A DNA stretch of 64,000 nt from Prochlorothrix hollandica PCC 9006 = CALU 1027 (GTDB lineage: Bacteria > Cyanobacteriota > Cyanobacteriia > Prochlorotrichales > Prochlorotrichaceae). Under the pieces are notes generated by a model. That model made no database searches. It was not told the origin of the DNA and saw only the letters and a list, made by a program, of their open reading frames with translations. The stretch spans positions 1 through 64,000 of the forward strand of contig NZ_KB235935.1 of NCBI RefSeq assembly GCF_000332315.1, written 5' to 3'. Every line of letters starts with the position of its first letter. The first letter of the stretch is position 1. Of the stretch, positions 46,205 to 48,214 are shown one piece after another. A program made the position numbers and the translations under genes.

Positions 46205-46250
46205 GATCTAGGGCTGAATAGTTTATCCAACCTGATGGGCTAATCAACAC

Positions 46251-46340
46251 TTGACATGCTCCCCGACCTAAAGGTGCGGGGATTCTCCGGCTAGGCGAAT
46301 AGTCCAAGCTGTTCGCTGTACGGCTGGCTAGACAAAGCAG
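46251..46340 (-). ncRNA. Predicted omega-RNA 3' region / right end of the TnpB element
   Basis: Position-based call: the 3' end of tnpB plus the CCCCG-ACCT-AA-AGGT-GCGGGG hairpin (46262-46283), ending near TTGACAT. In characterised IS605 elements this region forms the scaffold and the flanking DNA the guide. The flank here is the cysE 3' side. Not verified by structure comparison. Confidence 0.4.
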
Positions 46341-47511
46341 TCGGATTGCCAGACATCCTGGTCTTACGCCCGTTCTTTGTCCATTTAGAGTCTTGGGTTA
46401 GCCCCAACCCAGACTTTTCGATATTTTTGGCGGCATTACCATCTCTATCATGTTCGGTGCCGCAACTCACACAGAGGATGGAACGAACCGATAGAGCAAC
46501 CTTGCCCCAACGAAAGCCACAATCAGAACAGATCTGACTGGTTGGCTCCCACCGACTGATGATCCTGACCTCTCGATCATTAACCATGTTGGCCTTGGCC
46601 TCGCACATGGTTCGTGCGGTGCCCCAACCTTGCTCACTGATGGCTCGTGCCAACTTCCGATTACCAAGCATATTCTTCACCGCCAGATCCTCCAACACCA
46701 CCACTTGATTTTCGTGGATGAGCTGGGTCGTGGTCTTGTGCAGAAAGTCTTTTCGGATATTGGCCGTTTTTAGCTTCAGCTTTGCAAGGCGCAGCCTAGT
46801 CTTTGCGCGACGCTTAGACCCTTTAACTTGGCGGGCCAGCTTACGCTGAAACCGTCGCGTCTTTCGGTCTAACCGATTATATCCAGGGGATTCTACCCGA
46901 TCACCTGTGCTGAGAAAGGCAAAGGTTTTGATGCCTAGATCCACCCCAATCGAGGGCCGTAGTGGCTCAATGTTGATGGGTCCAATCTCCACTACAAAGC
47001 TGGCATGGTATTGCCCAGCCGTGTTACGGATAATGGTCACAGAGCTAGGTTCAGAGGGCAGTGGCCTTGACCACTTCACCTTGAAGCGGCCTAACTTGGC
47101 CAGTTCAAGCTTATTGCCCTTGAGGGAGAATCCCGTCCGAACAAACCGTGCCGACTGTTGGTTCAGCTTCTTTTTGAACCGAGGGAAGCCCACCTTTGGC
47201 CCTTTTCGTTTGCCGCTACGGCTCTCAAAAAAGTTCTTGAAGGCAGCACCTAAAGCCTGAACCGACTGCTGCAAGGGCACGACTGACACATCGGCCAACC
47301 ATTCCCGTTCAGCCGTCTTTTTGGCCTGAGTGATCACCAGCTTTTGCAGTTCAGCATTGCTAGGCCATTTCTCGCCCTGCGGCACTGACCGCACAATCGC
47401 CAGGGCATCGTTGTACACAACTCGGCAACACCCAAAAAGCTGATTCAGCCCTTTGACCTGTTGCGGTGTCGGATAAATTCGGTACTGGTATCGTACTTTC
47501 ATGCTAACCAT
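46291..47511 (-). CDS. tnpB: RNA-guided nuclease TnpB (IS605 OrfB)
   Basis: 406 residues. N-terminal HTH-like region MKVRYQYRIYPTPQQVKGLNQLFGCCR (part), central wedge segment, RuvC-like nuclease with Asp in SIGVDLGIKTFAFLS, Glu in VVVLEDLAVKNM and Asp in EHDRDGNAAKNI, and a zinc finger ICSDCG...ILCVSCG. All three catalytic acids and four Cys are present, so it looks intact. TnpB proteins use an omega-RNA read from the end of the gene and the right end to cut DNA and preserve the element. By that logic the guide would start near 46250 and be directed outward to the left. A second in-frame ATG at 47502 (MKVRYQ) is the likelier start. Confidence 0.92.
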   Translation of the reverse strand: MVSMKVRYQYRIYPTPQQVKGLNQLFGCCRVVYNDALAIVRSVPQGEKWPSNAELQKLVITQAKKTAEREWLADVSVVPLQQSVQALGAAFKNFFESRSGKRKGPKVGFPRFKKKLNQQSARFVRTGFSLKGNKLELAKLGRFKVKWSRPLPSEPSSVTIIRNTAGQYHASFVVEIGPINIEPLRPSIGVDLGIKTFAFLSTGDRVESPGYNRLDRKTRRFQRKLARQVKGSKRRAKTRLRLAKLKLKTANIRKDFLHKTTTQLIHENQVVVLEDLAVKNMLGNRKLARAISEQGWGTARTMCEAKANMVNDREVRIISRWEPTSQICSDCGFRWGKVALSVRSILCVSCGTEHDRDGNAAKNIEKSGLGLTQDSKWTKNGRKTRMSGNPTALSSQPYSEQLGLFA

Positions 47512-47545
47512 GATAGCATAGATGGGTAGACGATGGGTAGGCGCA

Positions 47546-47686
47546 ATGGCGAAAGAAAGGCTCGGTTTAAGGGTGTCGGGCGCTAGGTTGGCAAAGCTTA
47601 GGCGGATTGCGGAACAGAGAGAGAAGACGATGACCCAGCTTGTGGAAGACTCGATAGATCGGTTGCAGGAAGAAAAGCCGTCCTAG
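47546..47686 (+). CDS. Small RHH-like protein divergent from tnpB
   Basis: 46 residues: MAKERLGLRVSGARLAKLRR, then IAEQREKTMTQLVEDSIDRL and QEEKPS. The pattern (short beta-strand GLRVS, then helices LAKLRRIAEQREKT and MTQLVEDSIDRLQ) fits a minimal ribbon-helix-helix DNA binder. An in-frame ATG at 47522 would add eight residues. It reads away from tnpB, starting within 35 bp of its start codon, and its last codons run into the hairpin at 47674-47700. It may repress tnpB or act as a transposition accessory; this is inference. Confidence 0.65.
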   Translation: MAKERLGLRVSGARLAKLRRIAEQREKTMTQLVEDSIDRLQEEKPS

Positions 47687-47700
47687 AAGGACGGGGCTTT
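47674..47700 (+). terminator. Hairpin at the 3' end of the RHH-like gene / element end
   Basis: AAAGCCGTCC-TAGA-AGGAC-GGGGCTTT, a 10-bp stem with tight loop, overlapping the RHH stop. It could serve as a terminator and/or as an IS605 subterminal hairpin. No long T-run follows. Confidence 0.5.
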
Positions 47701-47713
47701 AGACCCAGATTTT

Positions 47714-48214
47714 CGGTAATGATTCAGGGGTCCACAGGAGAATGAGGGTTTCAGGCTCTCGACAACAGACCTTAGGCGATTGGAGAGGGTCCATTTCCCT
47801 GGGGTGGGTTCACCGATTTTGGTAGGGGCAATCCCCCCGTGGTTGCCCCGGTGGTGGGTCGCCAAGAGGACCGATTTTGGTAGGGGCAATCCCCCCGTGG
47901 TTGCCCCGGTTGGGGGTCGCCAAGAGGACCGATTTTGGTAGGGGCAATCCCCCCGTGGTTGCCCCGGTGGTGGGTCGCCAAGAGGACCAATTTTGGTAGG
48001 GGCAATCCCCCCGTGGTTGCCCCGGTGGTGGGTCGCCAAGGGGACCAATTTTGGTAGGGGCAATCCCCCCGTGGTTGCCCCGGTTGGGGGTCGCTAAGAG
48101 GGTCGGTACGGGGGCGAGAACCCTACCCGAAGTCGATGGTTCCCAGGTGAAATGCACCCCGTTGATCCGGCTCTGACCGGCGATCGTGGGGCTGAAACCC
48201 TATCTGGTTCACGC
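47714..48214. repeat. Family 4 element with five 58-bp core units
   Basis: Same ends as 30553-30835 (TAATGATTCAGGGGTCCACA; GTGGGGCTGAAACCCTAT), but the core GATTTTGGTAGGGGCAATCC...GTCGCCAAGAGGACC is repeated at 47815, 47873, 47931, 47989 and 48047 (period 58). The repeats alternate between GGTGGTGGGTCGCC and GGTTGGGGGTCGCC variants. Minus-strand frames here translate only the repeat and are not genes. Confidence 0.92.

Follow-up and report, generated by a model that had tools for sequence, protein, structure and literature searches.

An IS200/IS605-type element of Prochlorothrix hollandica in which a gene for a probable CopG-like autorepressor takes the place of tnpA

The window, a stretch of 64,000 nucleotides from Prochlorothrix hollandica PCC 9006 (contig NZ_KB235935.1, positions 1 to 64,000), contains an insertion element with two divergent genes, tnpB and a small gene encoding a ribbon-helix-helix (RHH) protein. 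The element is read on the minus strand, from its left end at 47715 to its right end at 46251. The features of the locus are as follows.

46231-46250, minus strand: putative guide, i.e. the host DNA immediately beyond the right end; this flank varies between copies
46251-47715, minus strand: whole element, IS200/IS605 type, 1465 nt, with borders from aligned copies
46251-46418, minus strand: putative omegaRNA scaffold, from the 3' end of tnpB to the right end (RE), the portion that mini-copies retain
46261-46281, minus strand: RE hairpin, preceded by GAAT, from aligned copies
46291-47511, minus strand: tnpB, 406 aa, with an alternative start ATG near 47502
47509-47520, no strand assigned: divergent promoter core CATGATAGCATA (consensus TATNATANCAT), of presumed promoter function
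47521-47542, plus strand: putative operator, direct repeats GATGGGTAG-AC / GATGGGTAG-GC with an 11-bp period
47546-47686, plus strand: RHH gene (product of 46 aa, CopG-like), where sister elements have tnpA
47674-47700, minus strand: left-end (LE) hairpin, into which the RHH gene extends with its 3' end and stop codon
47716-47719, minus strand: TTAC target tetranucleotide, adjoining the left end (47715)

In the aligned copies, the left border reads flank-TTAC followed by CGAAAATC..., and the right border ...GCATGTCAA followed by the flank. Subterminal hairpins near both ends and insertion 3' of a short fixed target, TTAC, are IS200/IS605 traits. In this group the guide tetranucleotides AAAG and GAAT sit at the hairpin feet, and by eye both stand at the expected places. 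The TTAC at 47716-47719 is presumably the TAM expected for TnpB from the TnpB literature, and the putative guide position, 46231-46250, is taken from known TnpB systems. The initial annotation had placed the element at 46251-47700; it does lie there, with the left end clipped, its true extent being 46251-47715. The ORF list holds no Y1 TnpA within 46251-47715, which makes the element a tnpA-less IS200/IS605 derivative; besides RHH and TnpB it holds no other gene, and none of any known toxin family. About 100 bp beyond the left end, a 58-bp unit is repeated in five tandem copies (47812-48101, 95% matches).

TnpB was initially described as intact, with all RuvC acids and zinc cysteines, and this is borne out: D191, E274 and D357, together with cysteines 328/331/347/350, are present in the window protein and likewise in each of the genome's 17 full-length copies, and the Pfam models OrfB_IS605, Cas12f1-like_TNB and HTH_OrfB_IS605, as well as NCBIfam guided_TnpB, exceed their cut-offs. 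Residues 8-370 align with ISDra2 TnpB (8h1j, E 1e-63).

In the genome (5.65 Mb, 13 contigs) TnpB has 133 matches, of which 17 cover the full length, at 97-100% identity. RHH has 57 matches, and 37 of these lack at most one residue of the complete protein. The right end of the element was found in 109 copies at up to 3 mismatches, the reversed pattern in none. Nearly all of the 59 distinct complete copies follow TTAC (58/59) and end in TCAA (58/59), and their right flanks, 56 of which are distinct, place them mostly at different sites. Many near-identical copies, with no tnpA in cis, support the earlier suggestion of an element mobilised in trans. The statement that tnpA is lacking holds for the element itself; elsewhere in the genome there is one IS200/IS605-type Y1 gene, out of five Y1 Pfam matches, the other four scoring lower and resembling, by eye, REP-associated ones. 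The element carrying this lone gene ends by eye in GAAT-hairpin-TCAA, as window-type elements do, and the gene is thus a candidate helper for transposition in trans.

The small gene had been described as an RHH-like gene of 46 aa, head-to-head with tnpB and sharing its start region. The two genes are indeed divergent and close; they do not overlap, 34 bp separating the first ATG of tnpB (47511) from that of RHH (47546). A 54-aa reading from 47522 is disfavoured with respect to the 46-aa one, because that start falls within the direct repeats. By sequence comparison the gene is real and under purifying selection: homologues were found in 29 of 388 genomes of the class, its own included, and dN/dS has a median of 0.15 where TnpB is present (111 pairs; 0.17 over 90 pairs when the scan motif is omitted) and 0.11 for solo loci, without TnpB (0.13 with the motif omitted), all from loci found by protein similarity, a sampling which favours conserved ones. 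Within the genome, 25 copies show 9 non-synonymous and 7 synonymous changes, for an expected 3.5:1, although these are small numbers.

The protein is most likely a CopG-like DNA-binding protein, judging from its predicted structure. In the AlphaFold2 model (mean pLDDT 92.6) helices span residues 12-25 and 29-38; DSSP assigns no strand in the monomer, the strand being formed in the dimer alone, and the model shows the strand-helix-helix fold of the RHH/CopG superfamily. The best Foldseek match is CopG (rmsd 0.9 over 37 columns, prob 0.97, E 0.29), with no match at E 0.001, and VIA-align gives Z of about 6, against the tool's caution level of 8, to StnY, CdbA, PutA, NikR, Arc and CopG. None of the Pfam RHH models passes its cut-off on the window protein (Antitox_RHH, 16.2 vs 27.2 bits).

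The association of RHH with tnpB extends well beyond this genome. Loci were selected by RHH similarity alone, taking the best one from each of the 28 other class genomes with a match: TnpB or a remnant of it lies upstream on the opposite strand in 26 of them (24/28 in a narrower look), so the linkage of the small gene with tnpB, whose lack would have spoken against the initial annotation, is conserved. The TnpBs beside these 26 loci are mostly just 25-36% identical to that of the window. A scan of genome contigs gave TnpB or a remnant upstream at 41 of 80 RHH loci (80 kept out of 142 found; all cyanobacterial by title), and a viral collection at 4 of 8. Over all RHH loci, TnpB or a remnant is found upstream in 71 of 116, counting L115, where the best match is on the other strand and further off. 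Plasmid searches with the two RHH kinds gave one cyanobacterial record each; a Calothrix plasmid record annotates the pair as 'hypothetical protein' and 'transposase, IS605 OrfB family'. By sequence comparison, many cyanobacteria have this pairing, with TnpBs that differ greatly from one another.

In the window, the sequence 5' of the RHH start is GATGGGTAGACGATGGGTAGGC. Self-identity at a shift of 11 averages 0.46 in 27 non-redundant regions, vs 0.27 in shuffled sequences, none of 1000 being as high. A second evaluation took 105 of the 116 loci, dropping the 11 that lack a start codon, and reduced them to 25 + 45 by removal of similar ones. The 45 regions of its held-out set give a self-identity of 0.42 (z 10.9, 0/500 shuffles), with lesser peaks at 13 and 15 bp; the signal is found whether TnpB is present (n=19, z 7.7) or the locus is solo (n=26, z 7.3), and 18 control regions upstream of tnpB without RHH give z -1.8. 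A clear repeat is missing in some RHH loci, e.g. L106, L108, L164 and L173. The tandem operator-like site occurs once in the 64-kb window, and no half-site, allowing one mismatch, was found elsewhere in the element, LE and RE included. Beside the repeats, mostly 36-38 nt 5' of the RHH start codon, the promoter core TATNATANCAT is matched at 8.48 of 11 positions vs 6.48 in shuffles, the consensus being drawn from the same loci.

Operators of different elements are often alike, but also differ between groups, and the repeat sequences roughly track the predicted DNA-reading strand residues of the protein. Operator likeness is 0.481 for pairs with the same strand residues (n=345) vs 0.440 for the others (n=3117), a difference confounded by kinship which vanishes at a helix identity of 0.4-0.5; that operator sequence follows the strand residues is suggestive only.

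Comparison with related elements indicates that RHH has filled the slot of the divergent tnpA. Among 25 relatives of the window-type TnpB, picked by TnpB in other genomes, 10 carry a Y1 TnpA in this slot (partial in L075) and none carries RHH. The closest tnpA-bearing sister elements have a TnpB 61% identical and a near-identical LE hairpin; TnpA and RHH proteins have a C-terminus ...KPS in common, with the stop codon inside the hairpin. RHH as a remnant of tnpA was considered and rejected, because the sister elements have a full Y1 TnpA in the slot and the RHH fold is unrelated. Other window-type TnpBs (49-60%) do stand beside RHH, in L109, L112, L113, L122, L190 and L191. In the viral collection, one contig of 58 kb has both genes (L189; TnpB 94% and RHH 89% identical). 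The tnpA-bearing sister elements (L056, L068, L078, L080) reside in G029, a genome of 2.6 Mb in which TnpB has 33 matches (43-61%).

A second TnpB lineage was sampled as 25 loci from 194 genomes. Window-type RHH is found in 8 and tnpA in 5; by eye, a different RHH is intact in L240 and L242 and lacks its start codon in L239 and L241, remnants are seen in 4 loci and nothing in 2, and 2 truncated loci were left out. In this second RHH family, L242 alone passes Pfam RHH_1 (24.6 vs 20.5 bits); in L240 and L242 the gene occupies the same slot, next to tnpB, and has, by eye, its own repeats spaced 11 bp. RHH and tnpA were never found together in one locus (0/50, both lineages). On a tree of 74 TnpBs, built by a quick method after identical rows and the short L241 had been dropped, the RHH label must change state 10 times, no fewer than 7 of these changes crossing well-supported branches, with long-branch warnings; the RHH proteins of the window and of L082 are 75% identical, their TnpBs 27%. 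The left module, made of LE, RHH and operator, therefore looks exchangeable between distant TnpBs.

No TnpB was detected upstream at 45 of the 116 RHH loci. Thirteen of these, several from Nostocales, were aligned and define an element of about 600 nt with RHH, repeats and a conserved non-coding stretch. Members of the RHH-only family, many of them in Nostocales, are L092, L103 and, where without TnpB, L131-L188. In most solo elements, a search against RHH-TnpB loci found no omegaRNA in common. Two RHH-only elements do share a stretch with another locus, L135 one of 35 nt (91%) with L094, and L165 one with L163; in both cases it is located some 1.27 kb 5' of RHH, close to where tnpB has its 3' end. 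RHH is equally conserved in solo loci, so repression of TnpB in cis cannot be its sole use; in TnpB-less elements it perhaps controls their own RNA or silences others.

Shorter copies are frequent in the genome of the window. A survey of 20 + 30 + 40 loci, out of the larger set of 109 right ends, included the 59 complete elements, 11 of which contain stretches of N and were left out. In the 48 gap-free ones the tnpB 3' region, i.e. the putative omegaRNA, is always retained (48/48); RHH and operator are both present in 20 and both missing in 28. As the same deletions remove the two, their joint loss is not independent evidence of a connection. A recognisable promoter core is kept in 24 of the 28 mini-copies without RHH; common sizes are 302, 276 and 257 nt, the tnpB ATG being altered in the latter two. 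From their sequence, the mini-copies apparently are unregulated promoter-omegaRNA minigenes. In three of them (L200, L216, L234) the promoter part is interrupted by a small element with ends TACAGCA...TGCTGTA and an apparent TA target. By analogy with known systems, one would expect an omegaRNA that comprises RE and the 3' end of tnpB and takes its guide from the flank. The fold of the putative omegaRNA shows no structural excess over shuffled sequences (z -0.69, 47 of 200 shuffles as good), and Rfam gave no match above gathering, just a sub-threshold one to HgcC (E 0.73), taken as chance.

The initial annotation had judged the gene arrangement suited to autoregulation. This proposal gains from the 11-bp tandem repeats at the common promoter, from purifying selection and from conserved linkage, and it seems likely that RHH acts as an autorepressor on the tnpB/omegaRNA promoter. 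The predicted binding site of RHH dimers is the pair of 11-bp direct repeats located between the genes. Once bound, the dimers would block their own promoter, since its -10-like core is closely followed by the repeats, and the tnpB-omegaRNA promoter, as the repeats fall approximately where its -35 region would be expected. Negative feedback would follow: the more copies of the element, the more RHH and the less nuclease per copy. An element entering an RHH-free cell would produce a burst of TnpB. Transposition itself would require a Y1 TnpA supplied in trans.

The occupation of the tnpA slot, the overlap with the LE hairpin and the conservation of RHH in elements without TnpB would also suit an accessory of transposition, taking over part of the TnpA role, e.g. 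by marking the left end for TnpA acting in trans. This is unlikely: 28 gap-free complete mini-copies have spread without RHH, which is thus not needed in cis, the repeat motif is found between the two promoters alone and not at LE or RE, and 46 aa are too few for catalysis. Alternatively, the main effect of RHH could be in trans, where, as a satellite or immunity factor, it would silence incoming or co-resident TnpB elements with the same operator. Such a role would keep RHH selected even in TnpB-less elements, where RHH is indeed intact and conserved and 11-bp repeats are again present, and the operators of different elements are often similar; the differences between groups, however, would limit cross-silencing. 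As the main function it appears rather improbable, and it is compatible with autorepression rather than exclusive.

It is very improbable that the small ORF, which overlaps the LE hairpin, is a passenger kept through DNA-level constraint on the left end, as synonymous changes dominate between loci, the start codon and repeats are conserved, and the 9:7 ratio of changes within the genome, for all its small numbers, is below the expected 3.5:1. The other initial suggestion, a host-domesticated TnpB under a repressor of its own, is in keeping with the lack of tnpA and was rejected on copy number, because 17 full-length copies at 97-100% and 109 right ends with variable flanks, mostly at different sites, leave it hardly any credibility.

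Autorepression might be part of a wider, two-tier circuit, proposed here tentatively. In full copies, nuclease production would be repressed to an extent that depends on copy number, through the LE-RHH-operator module, a swappable unit that has passed between TnpB lineages very far apart. Many guides free of this regulation would come from the dozens of mini-elements, which arose by deletion and join the tnpB promoter core to the omegaRNA; they would form a scattered natural array for one repressed nuclease, and RHH-only elements would be satellites setting the level of repression.

TnpB is a nuclease aimed at its own chromosome, and the question addressed here is how cells and transposons avoid harm. 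If confirmed, an element-encoded repressor which replaces the transposase and follows very different TnpB lineages would be a direct answer; RHH and its operator would supply a natural switch for a nuclease family used in genome editing, and the promoter-omegaRNA mini-elements would represent naturally occurring guide genes at scattered sites. Searches of the CC-licensed PMC literature, including PMC9956272, gave no report of an RHH-TnpB pair, and the papers naming both 'TnpB' and 'ribbon-helix-helix' are, as far as their accessible text goes, unrelated; subscription papers and preprints are largely outside this search, so that novelty in print is not assured. According to the accessible part of PMC10711439, cyanobacterial pro-Fanzor TnpBs bear a DPG RuvC motif, found also in the RHH-paired TnpB of L095; that part makes no mention of an RHH partner.

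Among known systems, type II toxin-antitoxin pairs differ in that the partner of RHH is here TnpB, and not a toxin of known family. CopG and other short RHH repressors resemble the window protein in predicted fold, in size (about 45 aa) and in tandem sites at their own promoter; they differ in having a replication or toxin gene as neighbour, whereas here it is tnpB, and the window protein is below every Pfam RHH cut-off. TldR proteins are nuclease-dead repressors derived from TnpB. They tie TnpB to transcriptional repression, as proposed here, but the window TnpB keeps its catalytic residues, the loss of which defines TldR (D191, E274 and D357 are intact in 17/17 copies), and the repressor is a separate protein. 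IS1341-type, tnpB-only elements have TnpB without TnpA, as here, to which the window element adds a second conserved gene and an operator-like site. IS605-like members of IS200/IS605 are alike in TnpB, in subterminal hairpins at both ends, in insertion next to a tetranucleotide and in the absence of visible inverted terminal repeats, and the ends TTAC / TCAA are those of ISHp608; they carry divergent tnpA and tnpB, whereas RHH occupies the tnpA slot here. The locus is best read as a known kind of element in altered form, of IS200/IS605 type with a probable CopG-like autorepressor replacing TnpA.
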